Source: Curtobacterium sp. TC1 (lineage in GTDB: Bacteria; Actinomycetota; Actinomycetes; Actinomycetales; Microbacteriaceae). From it: DNA of 64,000 bases. Positions 3,312 to 53,076 of this stretch are shown in pieces. The position numbers and the translations under genes were made by a program. The DNA lies in NCBI RefSeq assembly GCF_019844075.1, contig NZ_CP081964.1, positions 3,410,001 through 3,474,000 of the forward strand, read 5' to 3'. Numbering within the stretch: position 1 is the stretch's first letter; every line of letters begins with the position of its first letter. Under the pieces are notes generated by a model, which saw only the letters and a program-made list of their open reading frames with translations, was not told the DNA's origin and did no database searches.

Positions 3312-3428
3312 GTCCGGCGGCGTCCTACTCTCCCACAAGGTCCCCCTTGCAGTACCATCGGCGCTGAGAGGCTTAGCTTCCGGGTTCGGAATGTGACCGG
3401 GCGTTTCCCTCTCGCTATGACCACCGGA
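3312..3428 (-). rRNA. rrf: 5S ribosomal RNA, copy 1
   Basis: About 117 nt. The ends pair (TCCGGTGG with CCGCCGGA) and the core reads CCCGGTCACATTCCGAACCC followed by GGAAGCTAAGCC, as in actinobacterial 5S. It lies about 137 nt downstream of 23S. No strong T-tract terminator follows this copy; there is only a hairpin with CGTGAAC/GTTCACG arms near 3250-3280. Confidence 0.95.
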
Positions 3429-3564
3429 ACACTGTCGACCATGATCTGGTCTCAAACATGTCCCAGCTGTCGCTGAGCTATCTATTCAGTTTGATTCCCG
3501 ATCGTCTGTCGGGAACCACAAAGTGGACGCGAGCCCCGCACACGAAGGTGCGGGAAATCAGTGT

Positions 3565-6692
<3,128 letters not shown>

Positions 6693-6790
6693 CACAAAGA
6701 TTAAAATTGCGATCCGTCATCACCCACAACCATCAGCCCGAAGACCTCAGATCGATTGGATGACTCGAATCAAAGATGCTCGCGTCCACT

Positions 6791-6805
6791 GTGTAGTTCT
6801 CAACA
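6791..6805 (-). promoter_or_regulatory. boxA-like antitermination site in 16S-23S spacer, copy 1
   Basis: TGTTGAGAACTACAC on the minus strand resembles the actinobacterial rRNA boxA/leader motif (TTGAGAACT). The roughly 450-nt spacer (6693-7144) shows no tRNA gene in either operon. The same site recurs at 13426-13440. Confidence 0.6.
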
Positions 6806-7139
6806 TACGATCGGCACCACACTCCCCACCATCCAACGACAGTGCTTCATGCGGCCCAACGAAGGACACACCACGGATCACTCCATGCGGCCCAACCCCC
6901 AACCCACCTCACAGCAGATCAGGAAGCCTGGTCCCTCAGGACCCAACAACGTGCACCAGCCAACCCGTGCGACACCAACCCGTTCCAACCCCGCAAGCGG
7001 AGCGTACTGAGGCCAGCACCATCGGTACCAGCTGCACTGTCAATGTTCCACCCATGAGCTACCCGTCGGACACGTTCGGTCCGAATCAGGCGCCTGGACC
7101 ATGCATGCCCCGATGAGGGACAACACGAGGCCAGATGCT

Positions 7140-8667
<1,528 letters not shown>

Positions 8668-8830
8668 AAAATACAGACCCAACACCCGAAGGCATCAGAC
8701 CGAGTTGATTCTGACTGTTGACTGTCTACTGACAATCTTCAATCCAAAAGGAATTGTCTCAAACCCAACCAACCCGAAGGAAGGCCAGGCACGAGGTCAA
8801 TCAATAAATTGGCATTGACAATGTGCACGC

Positions 8831-8847
8831 TGTTGAGTTCTCAAGGA
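8831..8847 (-). promoter_or_regulatory. boxA-like leader motif upstream of 16S copy 1
   Basis: TCCTTGAGAACTCAACA on the minus strand matches the leader boxA seen before actinobacterial 16S genes. It is the last element shared with the second operon (15466-15482). Beyond 8858 the two upstream regions diverge completely, so the operons have different promoters. Confidence 0.6.
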
Positions 8848-8984
8848 CCAGACGCACTCACCACTCAGCACCATCAGGCACATCGTCAGAGAGGCATTCG
8901 TCTCGCGACACTGCAGATCACCTCGGTCGAGACCGTGGTTTTCATGGGTGTCGGTTGCCTGAGCGGGACCCCGTCCGGACTGCA

Positions 8985-9008
8985 TCACCAGGTGGTTCCA
9001 CCTGGTGA
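8985..9008. repeat. 24-bp perfect palindrome upstream of rrn copy 1
   Basis: TCACCAGGTGG and CCACCTGGTGA flank a 2-bp centre. It lies about 150 bp upstream of the shared leader of operon 1 and is absent before operon 2. It could be an operator or a cruciform; there is no T-tract. No convincing -35/-10 pair was found for operon 1. Confidence 0.5.
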
Positions 9009-9896
9009 CCGTCTCGGCCGTTCCGTTCTCCGCCTCAGCGGCAACGAGTGACAACATTACGGGGAGGTGAACGGGAGCGCCAGCCGGGCCACATCCCGGG
9101 CGTGTCGCCAGGTGGGCCTGCCTGAACCAAGACCGTCACCCGTCGTGCCATCCCTGTGGATCCACCCGCGGGACACCGGGACACCGGGACACCGGGACAC
9201 CGGGACACCGGGACACCGGGACACCGGGACACCGGGACACCGGGACACCGGGACACCGGGACACCGGGACACCGGGACACCGGGACACCGGGACGAGCAT
9301 CTCTCCCCAGGCAGCCTGATGACCAGCTTCGGCGGCGTAGTCGGCTGTTCCGCTCAGACCGGGAGCCGGTACGCGCTGAGCTCAGACGATTACCCTCGGG
9401 CCACAGCGCGGTCGCTCAGCAAGGAGACCCCACCGTGCTCAGTCATGGATCGAGATCCCGTCGCTATCCGCTGCGCCGGCTCGGCAAGGTTCAGCGCCGG
9501 CTCGAGGCAAGCACAGGCGGGCTCGAACGGAACTCCCCGTTTCGAGTCGCCCGACAACTGAAGCCACTCACGGCTGCCAACGACCACCAGAACACACTGG
9601 CCGCGATACCGCCCGTAATCTCGCTGCTCGCTCGTCACTGCCCCGCCGGCACCGACGTTCGCCGGAGCAGCAAGCGACCGCGGCGGCGCACAAGCACGAC
9701 CATCCATGAGCAGAGAGGGATGGGTGGTTGCCGTCGACGGGACTCAACCTTCGCTGCTCGCGAAGCACCAGCGCCAGCGCCAGCCACGAAGGGGCGCACA
9801 CCACTTCGGAGGCAGGAATGGGCGGACGGTATCCGCCGGCAGCAGCCCCTTCTCCTGACGAAGAGCCGCCACTGCGGAAGCGCCGGAAACGCAGAA
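9009..9896. other. Non-coding spacer between the two rRNA operons
   Basis: No credible gene is seen. Open frames here depend on the 8-bp array and have no ribosome binding site or recognisable domain. The stretch contains the tandem array at 9170-9294, presumably the promoter of operon 1 near its left end, and the terminator of operon 2 at its right end. Confidence 0.6.
9170..9294. repeat. 8-bp tandem array, unit GGGACACC, about 15.6 copies
   Basis: An uninterrupted, essentially perfect run of GGGACACC over 125 bp between the two rRNA operons. The period of 8 gives a 24-nt translation period. Such arrays change length by slippage. The unit is far too short and has no spacers, so it is not a CRISPR. 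Confidence 0.95.
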
Positions 9897-9924
9897 AACC
9901 CCTGACCAGTGCTGGTCAGGGGTT
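9897..9924 (-). terminator. Intrinsic terminator after rrn copy 2
   Basis: AACCCCTGACCAG and CTGGTCAGGGGTT form a 13-bp perfect stem with a 2-nt centre, followed on the minus strand by TTTTC. It lies about 22 nt past the 5S 3' end of the second operon. The first operon lacks an equivalent. Confidence 0.85.
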
Positions 9925-9945
9925 CCCTGGTGTTACTACGGTTAA

Positions 9946-10062
9946 GTCCGGCGGCGTCCTACTCTCCCACAAGGTCCCCCTTGCAGTACCATCGGCGCTG
10001 AGAGGCTTAGCTTCCGGGTTCGGAATGTGACCGGGCGTTTCCCTCTCGCTATGACCACCGGA
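9946..10062 (-). rRNA. rrf: 5S ribosomal RNA, copy 2
   Basis: Identical by eye to copy 1 at 3312-3428, and followed by the intrinsic terminator at 9897-9924. Confidence 0.95.
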
Positions 10063-10199
10063 ACACTGTCGACCATGATCTGGTCTCAAACATGTCCCAG
10101 CTGTAGCTGAGCTATTTATTCAGTTTGATTCCCGATCGTCTGTCGGGAACCACAAAGTGGACGCGAGCCCCGCACACAAAGGGTGCGGGAAATCAGTGT

Positions 10200-13327
<3,128 letters not shown>

Positions 13328-13425
13328 CACAAAGATTAAAATTGCGATCCGTCATCACCCACAACCATCAGCCCGAAGACCTCAGATCGATTGGATGACT
13401 CGAATCAAAGATGCTCGCGTCCACT

Positions 13426-13440
13426 GTGTAGTTCTCAACA
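13426..13440 (-). promoter_or_regulatory. boxA-like antitermination site in 16S-23S spacer, copy 2
   Basis: Same TGTTGAGAACTACAC motif as at 6791-6805. This spacer also has no tRNA gene. Confidence 0.6.
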
Positions 13441-13774
13441 TACGATCGGCACCACACTCCCCACCATCCAACGACAGTGCTTCATGCGGCCCAACGAAGG
13501 ACACACCACGGATCACTCCATGCGGCCCAACCCCCAACCCACCTCACAGCAGATCAGGAAGCCTGGTCCCTCAGGACCCAACAACGTGCACCAGCCAACC
13601 CGTGCGACACCAACCCGTTCCAACCCCGCAAGCGGAGCGTACTGAGGCCAGCACCATCGGTACCAGCTGCACTGTCAATGTTCCACCCATGAGCTACCCG
13701 TCGGACACGTTCGGTCCGAATCAGGCGCCTGGACCATGCATGCCCCGATGAGGGACAACACGAGGCCAGATGCT

Positions 13775-15302
<1,528 letters not shown>

Positions 15303-47632: not shown

Positions 47633-48133
47633 GTGAAGGGCTTCAAGGAGTTCCTGCTCCGCGGCAACGTCATCGACCTGGCCGTCGCAGTCGTCATCGG
47701 TGCTGCGTTCACCGCGATCGTCACGACGATCGTCAACGCACTGATCAACCCGCTCATCGGTGCCGTCTTCAACGCGTCGAGTCTCGACAAGGCGCTCATC
47801 GTCGAGATCCCGACGGTCTCCGGTGGCGATGCGAAGATCCTCTTCGGCGCGATCATCGGTGCGGTGCTCAACTTCGTCATCGTCGCCGCGGTCGTCTACT
47901 TCGCCCTCGTCGTACCGGTCAACCACCTGAAGAAGGTGGCCTTCGAGCGCGTCAAGAACGACGAGCAGCAGACCCCGCAGGACGTGCCCCCGACCGACGT
48001 CGAGGTGCTGCTCGAGATCCGCGACCTGCTCCGCTCCCAGAACGGCGAGCCGACGAGCACGGGTTCAGGTGCGCACGTCGCTCCGAGCACCGCGCCCGAG
48101 GGCCCCGGCATCGGCGGCTCGACGAAGCTCTAG
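47633..48133 (+). CDS. mscL: Large-conductance mechanosensitive channel
   Basis: 166 residues. Homopentameric membrane valve that opens under osmotic downshock. The N-terminal KGFKEFLLRGNVIDLAVAVV amphipathic helix and TM1 pore are intact, TM2 lies at about 78-100 (GAIIGAVLNFVIVAAVVYF), and the cytosolic DVEVLLEIRDLL helix forms the bundle. A GGAAGGAG site precedes the GTG. Confidence 0.97.
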   Translation: MKGFKEFLLRGNVIDLAVAVVIGAAFTAIVTTIVNALINPLIGAVFNASSLDKALIVEIPTVSGGDAKILFGAIIGAVLNFVIVAAVVYFALVVPVNHLKKVAFERVKNDEQQTPQDVPPTDVEVLLEIRDLLRSQNGEPTSTGSGAHVAPSTAPEGPGIGGSTKL

Positions 48134-48276: not shown

Positions 48277-48858
48277 TCAGGCGGTGACGCGGCGGCGCTT
48301 CGCGAACATCGCGACGGCGTACTGGATGCCGGCGAGCACGTGGCCCACGGTGCCGAGGTACACGAAGACCAGGGCGACGACCCGCACCCACGGCGCGTTC
48401 TCGTCGACGGCGTGCACGGCCGAGAAGAGCAGCACCGGCAGGCCCACGAAGAGCAGTGCGGAACGGATCTTGCCCGTCCACGTGACGTCGAGGTCCGGGT
48501 TGCCGCGGAACAGCACGCTCGACAGCACGACGAGCACCAGGTCGACGAGCACGACGACGGCGACGACCCACCACGGCAGCAGTCCGGTCAGCACGAGCGA
48601 CAGCACGATCGCGATGATGGCGAGGCGGTCGGCGACGGGGTCGATCGCCTTGCCGAGCTTCGAGCCCTGGTCGAACTTGCGAGCGATGAAGCCGTCCGCC
48701 CAGTCACTCACCCCGATGACGACGAGGACGACGAGCGCCCAGCCCGGGTGTCCGGCGACGACGAGCCACACGAACACCGGGATCAGCAGCAGCCGGACCA
48801 GCGAGATCAGGTTCGGCCAGGTCTGCCAGTCGGGGCGCCGCCGTACGGTGTCAGTCAT
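48277..48858 (-). CDS. CDP-alcohol phosphatidyltransferase family protein
   Basis: 193 residues, about five or six membrane helices. The full catalytic motif D-x2-DG-x2-AR-x8-G-x3-D-x3-D is exact in SDWADGFIARKFDQGSKLGK...DPVAD. Transfers a phosphoalcohol from a CDP-lipid: phosphatidylglycerophosphate or cardiolipin synthase are both possible, and the sequence does not decide. A TAGCCT box lies 8 nt before the ATG. Confidence 0.9.
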   Translation of the reverse strand: MTDTVRRRPDWQTWPNLISLVRLLLIPVFVWLVVAGHPGWALVVLVVIGVSDWADGFIARKFDQGSKLGKAIDPVADRLAIIAIVLSLVLTGLLPWWVVAVVVLVDLVLVVLSSVLFRGNPDLDVTWTGKIRSALLFVGLPVLLFSAVHAVDENAPWVRVVALVFVYLGTVGHVLAGIQYAVAMFAKRRRVTA

Positions 48859-48876: not shown

Positions 48877-49176
48877 CTACCAGTGGGGCGGGACGTCGCG
48901 CCGGAGCTGGTCGTCGTTCTCACCGTCGCGGTGTCGCGCCGGTTCCGGCGGCGGTGCCGGGTCGTAGCCCGGCACCGGCTGGGTGGTGACGCGTCTGGGG
49001 CGCCGCACCGGGCCTCCCGACAGGTCGTCCGTGTCGCGTTCTGGAGACGCTGCTGGACCGGGAGGCGCGGCTGACGACGCGTCGTCGGCTCGCGTCCACG
49101 TGCCCACCAGCTGGTCCGTCTCCGGCGTCACCGGACCGGCGGGCCGGGAGGCCCGCCGACTCGGCCGGTCGGTCAT
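48877..49176 (-). CDS. Small Pro/Arg/Asp-rich hypothetical protein, 99 aa
   Basis: Not recognised. It starts with an ATG that overlaps the stop of the helicase-like gene by 4 nt (ATGA), a strong sign of coupled translation. No membrane helix or signal; composition (PPGPAASPERDTDD, PPPEPARHRDGEND) predicts disorder. Two GGGAGGCCCG-type words lie inside it (49009-49018, 49146-49155), coding Arg/Ala/Ser/Pro stretches. Could be a partner of the helicase-like protein or a young ORF; not certain to be a gene. Confidence 0.5.
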   Translation of the reverse strand: MTDRPSRRASRPAGPVTPETDQLVGTWTRADDASSAAPPGPAASPERDTDDLSGGPVRRPRRVTTQPVPGYDPAPPPEPARHRDGENDDQLRRDVPPHW

Positions 49177-52100
49177 CGGCGTGCGGGGATCGGGGGGATC
49201 GAGATCTCCTGCGTGGCACCACGGTCGACCCCGAGCACGGCGGCGACGGTGTTCGCGACGCGGTCCGGGTCGGAGAACAGCTGGAACGCGTGCACGCGGA
49301 CGTAGTGCCAGCCGAGTCGGCGCAGGACCTCGGGGCGCAGGCGCAGGGACTCACGCAGCGACCCCTTGACGAGCGACGCGTCGGTCTCGATCGTGACGCA
49401 GACCCCGCCGTGCGCCGCCACCAGGCCGAGCTTGCCGCGGTGTCCGAGCGCGACCGGGATGCCGCGCATCTCGAGGCGACGGGCCAGGTCCACGAGCAGC
49501 GGGTCGGAGTCGTCCGGTACGTACTCGGCGGTGGTGCGCGCACGCACCTCGGCCAGGATCTCGGCGAGGGCGACGGTGCCGTGGCCCATGCGCTCGGCCT
49601 CGATGTCGGACGGCTGGAAGCACGTCACGATCACCATCGAGCGGCGCGCACGGGTCATCGCGACCGCGAGCAACCGCTCGCCGCCGGGCTTGCCGAGCGG
49701 ACCGAAGTCGCGCAGGACGCGGCCGTGCGGGGTGCGGCCGTAGCCGATCGAGAACACGACGCGGTCGCGGCTCTGCGCGACCGACTGCTCGAGCGTCGCC
49801 ACGATGAACGGCTCGGCGCGGTCGCCGATGACGAACTCGGTCAGGTCCTTGTGCCCCTGCGCCGCGGTCAGCACGGCTTGCTCGACGCGCACGGCGTGCT
49901 TCGCCGAGGCGGTGATGACCATGAGCGACTCGGACGGGCGGGTGCGGGCGTGGTCGATGACGAGGCGGACCACGCGGTCCACCTCGGCGTCGACGCTCTC
50001 GACGGCGCCGGACTCGGGGTCCGGCACGGCCTTGCCGTCGCTGACGTAGTCGAGCGCGATCGAGCCGTGCCCGAGGAACGACCCGGCCCACGGGAGCGAC
50101 TCGATCTTGCCGCCGTAGAAGCGACGGTTCACGAGCTCTGCCAGGTCCTCGCCGCCGGCACGGTACGACCGCGAGAGCGACAGGGTCGGCAGCAGGGTGG
50201 AGAGCTTCGCCAGGGCGGAGTCGGCGTGGAAGGCGTCGAGGGTGCCCTCGTCGACCTGCAGCGCACGGTGCTCGGGGTCGACGGCGATGCGGAACGGCGA
50301 CGGCGTCTGCGTGACCGGGTCACCGAAGACGACGGTCTGGCGCGCACGGCGGACGGCTCCGACGGTCTCGGCGATCGTCACGGCTCCGGCGTCGACCAGG
50401 ATCACGGTGTCGAACGGCATCGTGTCGGCGATCTGCGACACCTCGTACGGGCTCGCGAGCCACACGGGCGCGATCGACCGGGACAGGTGCGGCGCGGAGT
50501 CCTGGAGCAGCCGCGAGGTGATCGCACCCTCGCGCAGCTGGGTCTTCAGCGCCGTGGCCTCTTCCGGCCAGTCGACGAGTCCGACCTTCCAGTTCTCGGC
50601 GAGCTGCCACGCGAGGCCCTGGGAGACCCCGGCCGCGTGGGCGTCATCGACGAGGCGGAAGTCGGCCTCGACCCGGTCGAGCATGTCGGTGTTCGCGCCG
50701 AGCAGCGCCCGGTCGGACTCGAGCATGGTCTCGAGCGCGGACTGCCACCAGGCGAGCTCGAGCTCGGCCGGCACCTGCAGGTCCGGCACGTGCCGGTTCG
50801 CCAGGTCGGTGATGAGCGGCTCGAGCTGCAGGTCGCGCAGGGTCTGCATGAGCTCGGTGCGCTCCTGCAGGTTGTGCAGGACGTCGGACTCGGCCGCGAG
50901 CTCGGCGATCGTGGGGACGAGCTGGTCGACCGGGGTGTTCGCGAGCTGACGGTCGCGCTCGGTCCGGCCGAGCGGCTCGTCGAGGCGCGCGAGGTCCTCG
51001 GCGACGTTCGAGAACAGCACCTGCACGTCCGCGATGCCCGTGGGCACCTCGGGGTTCACGCCGGCGGCGACGTAGCGCTGCCAGAGCACGCGCTGCTGCT
51101 GCACCCGGGTCAGGGCCTCGTGCAGGTCGGAGACGTGCACGCCGGGTCGGACGTACTCGCGAGCGAGCTTCTTCAGGCGACGACGGTTCGTCGACGACAT
51201 CGGGGCGCCCTCGCCACGCGGGGCCGTGGCGGCGACGAGCTCCGACACCGAGCGGTCGAAGACCACCGGCAGGAAGCGGTCGAGGGTGTCACGGATCTCG
51301 GTGAGCAGGCGCAGGTAGATACCGAGCTCGTTGATCGTCGTGAACTGGCGCATGTGCGTCGTGGCGACGAGGTCGTGCGCCCGGCGGAGCAGCGTCGGCA
51401 GACCGTCGGAGTCGAGGTCCTTCGCGATGCGGTGCGCGCGCTGGGCGCCGTCGCTGGTGGAGAACTTCGCGCCGTACCAGGGCGAGTCGTCGGGGCCGTA
51501 ACGGAACTCACCGAGGTTGGCCGCGCTGACCATCGTCTCGGCGACACGCGAGCGCCCCTCGACCATGGACGCCACGGACTGCTTCGACAGGCGCGCGGTC
51601 GTCGACGGTGGGACCGGCAGGAGCGACAGCCTCGAGAGCTCGACCAGGCAGTCGAGCACCGAGACGCCGAAGTCGGCGTCCTTGCGGGTGAGCGAACCGC
51701 GGTAGTCCTTCAGGACCTTGCGGAGCCGGACCAGGGCGTCGTCGACCTCGCGGAGGTTCGGACGTGCGGCCTTCTCGTTCCGCGCGATGGCACGGACGAC
51801 GTCGCGGCGCAGGGTCGACGGTGTGACCGCGACGCCGGGCAGCTGGACCTCGCCGAAGCGCGCGGCGATACCCCGCAGGGTCGCTCGGCGCGGGCTCACC
51901 ACGAGGACGCGCTTGTTCGCGGCGACCAGGCCACCCAGGGCGTTCACGATCGTCTGGGTGCCGCCGGTGCCGGGCAGGGTCTTCACGACGATGGAGTTGC
52001 CGGCCGCGATCTGCGCGATCACGTTCTCCTGCTCGTCGTCGGCGTCGAGCAGCAGGGTGTCGGTCTCCGGGCTGCGCTCGTCCGACGGGGTCTGCTCGAC

Positions 52101-53063
52101 CGGGTGGTACGACTGCTCGACCTGCCACTTGGCGCTCGGGTTGCCGGCGAGGGCGTCGAGCACCGGGTGGGACAGGTCGCCGGTGTCCTCGACCATGCCG
52201 GTCGCGACCTCGGCGAACGTGGAGACCACGAGCCGGGCGTGCACCGAGAAGCCGGGGATGTGCGCGGTCAGGCCGCGCAGTCGGTCGATGACGGGGTTCG
52301 GCGTGAACGAGCCGTCCTGCTGCGCGAGCGCCACGAAGGACTGCGCGTCGAGGATGACGCCGAACTGTTCGTGCAGGGCGTCGGCGAGACCCGGGTTGAG
52401 CACGGGTTCGCCGAGGAGCCGGACCTCGAAGTCACGGCCATGGCGGCGGATCGCCAGCGGGCGCAGCAGCACCGGGCCGCGGAACTGCTCGTCGCCGTGC
52501 TTCCAGTCGGCCATGCCGATGCCGAGCTTCACGGCGTCGATGCCGCGCACCGTCGCGAGCTCGGTGCCCTTCGCCTCGACCTGGCCGGCGGCGACGCGGG
52601 CCGCACGGAGCGCCACCTCGTCGCGGATCAGGCTGGACAGCAGGGTGGTCTTGCCGGTGATGAACTGGGCGAGGCCGCCCGGGTGCGTCGTCGACAGCTC
52701 GATGCGGGAGCGGGGGTGGTCGCTGAAGTGGGTGAGCGGGCTCGTTCCGCCGACGCCGGTGAGCTGGCCGCGCCAGCCGTCCCACGTCGGTTCGGCCGCG
52801 TTGCCCGCCTGCAGCCGGGGGTCGCCGAGGCTGATCGCCTGCGGGCTGGTCAGCTGCAGTTCCGGGCGGAGCGTGCGGTCCGGTTCGTCGTCGGTCCGGT
52901 CCTGGTCCACGTCCTGCTGCTCGTCTCGGTCGTCTCGCTCGTCGCGGTGGTCGCGCTGACCGCGGTCGTCTCGCTCGTCGTCGGGGCGCTCGTGGGCACC
53001 CTCGACGGGGACGTCGTCGTTCACGTCGTCCTCACCGTCGGTCACCCTGTCCGCTCGCCACAC
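49173..53063 (-). CDS. DUF4011-type SF1 helicase-like protein with degenerate ATPase and nuclease motifs
   Basis: 1296 residues. Order: acidic, Asp/Arg-rich head (1-65); helicase-associated N-region (GWRGQLTGVGGTSPL; GIDAVKLGIGMADW; GPVLLRPLAI); ATPase domain 1 from about 340; long insertion; domain 2 (SLSRSYRAGGEDLAELVNRRFY; GERLLAVAMTRARR); and a C-terminal Vsr-like end (LGWHYVRVHAFQLFSDP). Walker A reads PGTGGTQT, so the Lys is Gly368. Walker B reads VILVDAGAV, so Asp-Glu is Val890-Asp891. The motif III Gln and motif V QGDE are also gone, and the nuclease Asp is Gly (KLGLV). Predicted inactive enzyme that may still bind DNA or partners. GTG 53063 is set by a TACAGT box 7 nt upstream; 53045 and 53024 are alternatives. 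Confidence 0.85.
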   Translation of the reverse strand: MWRADRVTDGEDDVNDDVPVEGAHERPDDERDDRGQRDHRDERDDRDEQQDVDQDRTDDEPDRTLRPELQLTSPQAISLGDPRLQAGNAAEPTWDGWRGQLTGVGGTSPLTHFSDHPRSRIELSTTHPGGLAQFITGKTTLLSSLIRDEVALRAARVAAGQVEAKGTELATVRGIDAVKLGIGMADWKHGDEQFRGPVLLRPLAIRRHGRDFEVRLLGEPVLNPGLADALHEQFGVILDAQSFVALAQQDGSFTPNPVIDRLRGLTAHIPGFSVHARLVVSTFAEVATGMVEDTGDLSHPVLDALAGNPSAKWQVEQSYHPVEQTPSDERSPETDTLLLDADDEQENVIAQIAAGNSIVVKTLPGTGGTQTIVNALGGLVAANKRVLVVSPRRATLRGIAARFGEVQLPGVAVTPSTLRRDVVRAIARNEKAARPNLREVDDALVRLRKVLKDYRGSLTRKDADFGVSVLDCLVELSRLSLLPVPPSTTARLSKQSVASMVEGRSRVAETMVSAANLGEFRYGPDDSPWYGAKFSTSDGAQRAHRIAKDLDSDGLPTLLRRAHDLVATTHMRQFTTINELGIYLRLLTEIRDTLDRFLPVVFDRSVSELVAATAPRGEGAPMSSTNRRRLKKLAREYVRPGVHVSDLHEALTRVQQQRVLWQRYVAAGVNPEVPTGIADVQVLFSNVAEDLARLDEPLGRTERDRQLANTPVDQLVPTIAELAAESDVLHNLQERTELMQTLRDLQLEPLITDLANRHVPDLQVPAELELAWWQSALETMLESDRALLGANTDMLDRVEADFRLVDDAHAAGVSQGLAWQLAENWKVGLVDWPEEATALKTQLREGAITSRLLQDSAPHLSRSIAPVWLASPYEVSQIADTMPFDTVILVDAGAVTIAETVGAVRRARQTVVFGDPVTQTPSPFRIAVDPEHRALQVDEGTLDAFHADSALAKLSTLLPTLSLSRSYRAGGEDLAELVNRRFYGGKIESLPWAGSFLGHGSIALDYVSDGKAVPDPESGAVESVDAEVDRVVRLVIDHARTRPSESLMVITASAKHAVRVEQAVLTAAQGHKDLTEFVIGDRAEPFIVATLEQSVAQSRDRVVFSIGYGRTPHGRVLRDFGPLGKPGGERLLAVAMTRARRSMVIVTCFQPSDIEAERMGHGTVALAEILAEVRARTTAEYVPDDSDPLLVDLARRLEMRGIPVALGHRGKLGLVAAHGGVCVTIETDASLVKGSLRESLRLRPEVLRRLGWHYVRVHAFQLFSDPDRVANTVAAVLGVDRGATQEISIPPIPARR

Positions 53064-53070
53064 ATCCGAC

Positions 53071-53076
53071 ACTGTA
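53071..53076 (-). promoter_or_regulatory. -10 box (TACAGT), helicase-like gene promoter
   Basis: TACAGT ends 7 nt before the GTG at 53063, in the divergent gap to the CitE-like gene. Confidence 0.4.

Follow-up and report, generated by a model that had tools for sequence, protein, structure and literature searches.

Upf1, Dna2 and IGHMBP2 are working enzymes, unlike the helicase-like protein discussed here. It is encoded by a single-copy gene of Curtobacterium sp. TC1 (Microbacteriaceae, order Actinomycetales, class Actinomycetes), on the reverse strand of a stretch of 64,000 nucleotides (contig NZ_CP081964.1, positions 3,410,001 to 3,474,000), hereafter the window, in which all coordinates are counted. 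Its predicted fold is that of a helicase of superfamily 1B (SF1B), and the residues that would make it an ATPase and a nuclease have been replaced.

Loss of chemistry is not foreign to helicases. PriA of Deinococcus radiodurans is reported to have neither ATPase nor unwinding activity, to bind DNA and, on some evidence, to interact with DnaB; its helicase motifs, much as in our case, are poorly conserved, there across a whole phylum (PMC4504706). The nuclease-like domain of RecC is non-catalytic and makes a hoop for single-stranded DNA (PMC1185551), and the helicase-like region of AddB holds the Chi-recognition locus (PMC4824097). In both, a helicase-like (AddB) or non-catalytic nuclease-like (RecC) part reads or guides DNA, but RecC and AddB do so as subunits within complexes that are active. 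At the window locus no gene for a partner helicase was recognised, complexes formed in trans lying outside the search.

By sequence, the best-scoring described families are ProA, Hhe and PDC-S37. Their helicase core and C-terminal part align with the window protein, but their models extend over 1,903, 1,797 and 1,550 positions, respectively, whereas our protein is shorter and dead. A DUF4011 gene has been reported as a core flank of a defence hotspot of Pseudomonas aeruginosa (PMC10250203), and MTES_1575, the namesake of the nuclease family REase_MTES_1575, is a different, larger protein (PMC3710099).

A helicase-nuclease that has lost its catalytic residues

The window protein was compared with intact relatives and with 252 close homologues (120 listed proteins and 132 loci above 1,000 bits), a set heavy in Curtobacterium, partly redundant and including the window's own copy.

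49173..53063, reverse strand: pseudo-helicase/pseudo-nuclease gene, 1,296 amino acids, GTG start; distant relatives NCBIfam ProA (301 bits) and PADLOC PDC-S37 (311 bits)
51951..51974, reverse strand: dead Walker A, PGTGGTQT, residues 364-371, lysine site occupied by Gly368 (motif comparison; strand-loop-helix kept in the model)
50379..50405, reverse strand: dead Walker B, VILVDAGAV, residues 887-895, with Val890-Asp891 (motif comparison with intact relatives)
50307..50327, reverse strand: altered motif III, FGDPVTQ, residues 913-919, motif III glutamine lost (motif comparison)
50142..50168, reverse strand: retained motif IV, SYRAGGEDL, residues 966-974, Arg968 in 252/252 close homologues
49758..49778, reverse strand: altered motif V, AQSRDRV, residues 1096-1102, QGxE lost (motif comparison)
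49641..49661, reverse strand: retained motif VI, AMTRARR, residues 1135-1141, Arg1138 and Arg1140 in 252/252 close homologues
49209..49481, reverse strand: Vsr-like (REase_MTES_1575) nuclease-derived domain, Pfam 23.1 bits, below the cut-off of 38.2
52647..52670, reverse strand: N-terminal-domain string AQFITGKT, residues 132-139, which resembles a P-loop and was judged not to be one
53064..53076, reverse strand: possible leaderless promoter (TACAGT, 7 nucleotides, GTG), proposed from the sequence

The frame is open throughout its 1,296 codons and stop, and the protein is 97% identical to one of Curtobacterium oceanosedimentum. An earlier note on this DNA had described a catalytically dead protein related to DUF4011/SF1 helicase-nucleases, and every motif loss that it quoted is found at the residues it gave. 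At the aligned sites the intact relatives have PGTGKSQT, FDEASQ, GDERQLP, QGDERD and IDLAV, so that the alignment identifies the changes in the window protein as true replacements, not misalignments. The catalytic aspartate of the nuclease-derived domain is among the residues replaced (GKLGLVA, residues 1210-1216), while Glu1226 is kept; the Q motif, motif IV (YR) and motif VI (TRARR) are intact. The N-terminal string MWRAD (VWRAD in the window translation) is common to the proteins of the window, of Curtobacterium, of Frigoribacterium and of Frondihabitans, and therefore supports the GTG start, upstream of which TACAGT is a candidate leaderless promoter.

A gene that keeps the motif VI arginines and the Q motif might still encode a working enzyme, using unusual residues or a second P-loop. 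The string AQFITGKT, whose pattern is matched in 206 of 253 sequences (the 252 close homologues and the window protein), would be the place to look for the latter. In the model it comes after a helix, its lysine is Arg, Gln, Asn or Thr in 32 of the 253 sequences, and intact relatives have a normal P-loop at the usual place; we thus rejected it as a second P-loop. A pattern search found no hydrophobic-DE site anywhere in the window protein. An active enzyme is therefore very improbable, and, apart from the rejected look-alike, the intact GKT/S and DE elsewhere in the protein, which the earlier note had named as what would overturn its view, did not turn up.

The predicted fold is an intact Upf1/Dna2-like SF1B helicase (predicted local distance difference test, pLDDT, 89), with a long, mostly helical insert between the P-loop and Walker B that distinguishes it from the solved structures of Dna2, Upf1 and IGHMBP2. 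The protein thus shares, in the model, the helicase fold of DUF4011/SF1/Vsr-like proteins and lacks their catalytic Walker A, Walker B and motif III, as well as a REase_MTES_1575 domain that has its aspartate. Pfam gives weak matches to REase_MTES_1575, AAA_11 and AAA_12, each below cut-off, and no match to DUF4011, for which the intact relatives L148 and L149 (L, G and f denote our loci, genomes and families) score 27.0 and 28.9 against a cut-off of 22.2; these two also pass the nuclease cut-off. PF13195 is among the precomputed annotations of some Microbacteriaceae members. With a helicase fold, lost ATPase motifs and purifying selection, as described below, the protein is a probable pseudohelicase; as a member of that class it would also be expected to bind nucleic acid or a partner without hydrolysing ATP.

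The dead state is conserved

None of the 252 close homologues has Lys at the Walker A lysine site, which is occupied by Gly (193), Ala (45), Ser (12), Leu (1) or Val (1). Of the five motif groups tested, not one is left in any of the 133 locus rows with the label Microbacteriaceae or f1, the window copy included, in four loci that carry no family label or in the window protein. In the 253 sequences, with their excess of Curtobacterium, the mean frequency of the major residue is 0.971 for the P-loop, 0.982 for motifs III and IV and 0.986 for motif VI, against 0.783 for the whole protein; it is 0.915 for Walker B, 0.938 around the nuclease aspartate and 0.812 around the nuclease glutamate. Positions invariant at 0.99 or above number 7/8 in the P-loop, 6/7 in motif VI and 5/6 in the Q motif.

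It would be tempting to see in this a pseudo-ATPase whose pocket, in Microbacteriaceae, binds a nucleotide or a similar ligand without hydrolysing it, switching the protein between states. The lysine site is indeed the sole P-loop position that varies, nearly always to a small residue, around it the P-loop, motif VI and the Q motif are nearly invariant, and the strand-loop-helix of the P-loop is retained in the model. Yet loss of the Walker lysine usually weakens nucleotide binding, and in the dead genes of families f3, f4, f9, f10 and f20 the pocket is hardly recognisable, so that nucleotide sensing could not be the shared function. We regard it as unlikely, though the most serious of the rivals.

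Selection was measured as the ratio of non-synonymous to synonymous substitution rates (dN/dS). Comparison of the helicase gene with those of 39 relatives (37 assigned to Curtobacterium, 2 further Microbacteriaceae) gave a median of 0.083; all pairs share the window copy and hence are not independent. The neighbours all have higher values: 0.128 for a CitE-like gene, 0.194 for MscL (37 pairs), 0.283 for a phosphatidyltransferase and 0.373 for a 99-residue open reading frame (ORF). A pseudogene decaying by chance might have been invoked for a gene with lost catalytic motifs, all the more since 7 Microbacteriaceae matches among those listed were flagged with an internal stop in the matched stretch. 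But open frames there exceed 1,300 codons, among the Microbacteriaceae matches listed they are mostly longer than 1,200 codons, and the dead motifs themselves are highly conserved. These alignments place the dead state under purifying selection and exclude decay, which leaves the pseudogene with next to no credibility and bears out the earlier opinion that the gene is selected.

Distribution in the order

The gene is nearly universal. It has a match in 197 of 199 Microbacteriaceae genomes and in 292 of 297 genomes of the order (E up to 0.001, a threshold at which single weak matches may be other helicases). Thirty genomes were searched again with a profile: five small ones from Microbacteriaceae and 25 that belong elsewhere in the order and whose earlier matches had mostly been weak, partial or not listed; all 30 were positive, including genomes of about 0.8 and 0.9 megabases. 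In seven sampled genomes, all drafts of 40-610 contigs, no copy was found, by profile search either. Class-wide, 93 of 296 genomes match, many of them over no more than short stretches; outside the order, matches close to full length are restricted to f38 (Jiangellaceae by its nearest named proteins), f25 and single genomes of f45 and f36. L081 is the copy in the window itself, and some genomes entered the set under two locus numbers (for example L148/L182, L145/L181 and those of the wide stretches, L224-L243).

This pattern is hardly that of a defence gene. A sensor or decoy derived from anti-phage helicases of the ProA/Hhe type is suggested by the top family scores, which go to ProA, Hhe and PDC-S37; the earlier note had itself considered defence. 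These scores are nevertheless far under the curated cut-offs: 301.4 bits of 1500 for ProA (NF058533), where the intact L148 and L149, at about 804 bits, also fall short, and 130.8 of 2000 for Hhe (NF042953). The gene is moreover present as one copy in nearly all sampled genomes, sub-megabase ones included, its tree follows families, and its identified conserved neighbours (mscL, fmdB, 5-formyltetrahydrofolate cyclo-ligase and the ORF of a peptide ending in PPHW) are non-defence genes. A role in defence is improbable.

Intact orthologues and repeated loss

Genes that kept their chemistry exist within the same order. In f5 (2 genomes, 3 rows; genome G236 of this family lies outside the inspected rows) GKS/T, DEAS, GDxxQ, QGxE and the nuclease aspartate are all present, and L148 has exactly the sequence of a protein from Angustibacter. 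Family f18, which we take to be Dermatophilaceae from its Phycicoccus/Pedococcus-type members, is mixed: of 13 rows, 5 are fully intact, 1 partly so and 7 dead. In the remaining 18 families of the order every row is dead; some rows are truncated by contig ends, and for three of these families there is a single partial row each. Truncated loci (L161, L163, L223, L155, L213 and others) were read as far as their sequence extends. The intact orthologues have the same domain order as the window protein (DUF4011 – SF1B helicase – REase_MTES_1575), about 35% identity, mscL nearby and a PPHW tail, separate or fused; they differ in having all ATPase motifs and the nuclease aspartate.

The dead genes did not all die in the same way. 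Outside Microbacteriaceae the lysine is replaced mostly by Gln (f6), by Ala (f7, f8) or, outside the order, by Arg (f38); Walker B becomes ADGG, DDAS, EEAS, LEAS or LDAVQ; and the nuclease aspartate or glutamate tends to outlast the ATPase motifs in f12, f16, f7 and the dead rows of f18. Five f18 rows (L151, L212, L214, L172 and L199) look like intermediates, with ATPase motifs partly lost and GDxxQ and the nuclease Asp/Glu kept; they suggest that the ATPase was lost before the nuclease. At least one genome whose gene is dead, G203 (f6), also has a separate intact relative elsewhere (L266, a frame of 2,167 codons).

A first tree, made without L161, L163, L223, L213, L155, L181, L182, L218 and L209, was followed by a second one of 69 chosen rows, with motif columns removed and rooted on outgroups from other classes (L248-L251), of which 4/4 are intact; another outgroup homologue, L253, keeps the ATPase motifs and not the nuclease aspartate. 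In the 69-row tree the dead rows form five groups of 44, 4, 5, 1 and 1 rows, inside or beside intact ones. Apparently, then, at least five losses of the catalytic set took place, provided that it was never regained; if regain is allowed, five changes of state are required. The alternative of one dead clade was rejected (approximately unbiased test, p = 0.00038, on 24 of the 69 rows).

A tail peptide ending in PPHW

48877..49176, reverse strand: 99-residue ORF ending in PPHW, its ATG overlapping the helicase stop (ATGA, 49176-49173); candidate partner or tail peptide
48880..48891, reverse strand: C-terminal tip PPHW of this ORF, at the same place in 141/146 loci

The helicase gene does not come alone. 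Neither Pfam nor NCBIfam recognises the window's copy of the 99-residue ORF that overlaps the helicase stop. Of 146 loci with sufficient flanking sequence, in which a few genomes are represented twice, 141 have a co-directional PPHW ORF no more than 1.2 kb downstream; the controls gave 1/146, 1/181, 0/181 and 0/223, and outgroup loci 0/3. The pattern was first noticed in these same loci and counted afterwards; likewise, the PPH of 34 aligned tails is invariant by construction, the tails having been chosen by it. A 4-nucleotide start/stop overlap is possible in 67 of 175 separate PPHW ORFs. Elsewhere the tail is fused to the helicase C-terminus, in 5/5 loci (4 genomes) of f10, 7/14 genomes of f6 and 3/59 loci of f1, and also in members of f14, f16, f18 and f19; on the tree, six changes between fused and separate states are needed. 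Because of these overlaps and fusions, we consider it likely that helicase and peptide act together in the order.

The peptide is probably older than this pairing. In the class, 93 of 148 genomes match its profile, some of them from families that gave no full-length match to the helicase, and the idea that it is exclusive to the helicase was accordingly dropped. Among 20 picked loci without such a match, fmdB or mscL was nearby in 13 and neither in 7, many tails ending in PPHH. The small PPHW/PPHH protein is indeed widespread in the class, often near fmdB or mscL without the helicase (L268, L269, L272, L273, L290 and others).

A proposed scaffold rather than a motor

What might a dead helicase do? 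The starting point would be an ancestral Upf1/Dna2-like SF1B helicase-nuclease with a DUF4011-like N-terminus. Its ATPase, and in the Microbacteriaceae-type protein its nuclease too, would have been lost, fold, locus and tail peptide being kept. The helicase channel and the nuclease-derived domain may then grip DNA or RNA, as the AddB and RecC regions do, and the PPHW peptide, coming from the following, often overlapping ORF or from a fusion, would attach the complex to some partner. We infer gripping and docking by analogy, from the fold and from precedent (PriA, RecC, AddB). A pseudohelicase of this kind, a non-catalytic, nucleic-acid-binding housekeeping scaffold acting with its PPHW tail, has in our judgement about even chances, its binding, its docking and the process it serves being what we infer. 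The scaffold or DNA binder of the earlier note is compatible with the predicted intact fold and stands as a conjecture; conservation throughout the order, the existence of intact orthologues, the repeated loss and the peptide ending in PPHW go beyond that note.

Several observations weigh against such a scaffold. In Microbacteriaceae the remnants of the pocket are among the most conserved parts of the aligned sequences, and a pure scaffold would not need them. The tail peptide is also found in families where no full-length helicase was matched, and by that distribution has a role of its own. An AlphaFold2 model of a fused tail gives no confident docking, the predicted linker being disordered and the tip falling from a pLDDT of about 71 to 56. 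The seven draft genomes without a copy may mean that the gene is dispensable. Finally, a damage-regulon signal is absent upstream: of 211 loci, 20 have LexA-type boxes upstream and 30 inside the gene (shuffled, 1), and the exact LexA core is upstream in 1 and inside in 4 (shuffled, 1). The last result also leaves the earlier suggestion of a part in DNA repair without its expected signature.

Nearly all sampled members of the order keep a helicase-like protein, mostly dead, beside or fused to the tail peptide. This points to an enzyme that was converted, on several occasions, into a structural component seldom missing from these cells. We would go further with some hesitation, at rather less than even odds: scaffold, not motor, would be the selected function of the lineage, in which the ancestral helicase-nuclease would have become a pseudoenzyme on at least five independent occasions, and the dead protein with its PPHW docking peptide would make a near-universal two-part machine with a housekeeping role in most families of the order, even in sub-megabase genomes.

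Pseudohelicases were already known, and in the literature searched they are single cases. What is new is one that spans a whole order, near-universal and under strong selection with its chemistry lost, that apparently arose repeatedly and that has a linked tail peptide. PriA of D. radiodurans belongs to another helicase family and is not known to have a nuclease domain or tail peptide. No description of this helicase family or of the PPHW peptide was found among the papers listed in searches of an open-licence library, subscription papers being outside the search. The intact orthologues of the same order are natural controls, which makes the non-unwinding, non-cutting roles of helicase-nucleases directly testable in harmless laboratory actinobacteria, and the peptide, widespread in the class, gains a functional lead. 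With reference to annotation, caution is in order, as the family is named AAA family ATPase, ATP-binding protein or DEAD/DEAH box helicase.

The locus and its neighbours

47633..48133, forward strand: mscL, convergent with the helicase gene, conserved anchor of the locus (Pfam MscL; synteny)
48277..48858, reverse strand: CDP-alcohol phosphatidyltransferase (cardiolipin-synthase/PgsA-like), between the PPHW ORF and mscL

In most Microbacteriaceae loci with enough flank the helicase gene points towards mscL, beyond which come fmdB and the gene of 5-formyltetrahydrofolate cyclo-ligase. Outside the family, mscL is present in 22 of 61 short-flank loci (L133-L193) and fmdB in 7 more, and this neighbourhood accompanies intact genes (L148, L149, L150, L152, L182-184, L190) as well as dead ones (e.g. 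L146, L156, L158, L168, L187). mscL is common to 14 of 24 wider stretches, whose upstream genes differ; no conserved upstream partner gene was seen in these 24 stretches by crude gene picking, which left unannotated the shared clusters other than mscL, fmdB and the window's own. The phosphatidyltransferase, matched only in Curtobacterium and two near-identical further loci, is probably outside the module.

Of the 211 loci searched for damage-regulon boxes, 27 have PafBC-like ones upstream and 5 inside the gene (shuffled, 9). We discounted this excess, as all but one of the 12 examples displayed are strings from Microbacteriaceae that hardly differ from each other and lack the TAGG half.

Elsewhere in the window, a tandem pair of rRNA operons (16S-23S-5S) occupies 3312-15302 on the reverse strand and accounts for a stretch of 55-61% guanine plus cytosine, in a window of about 71%.
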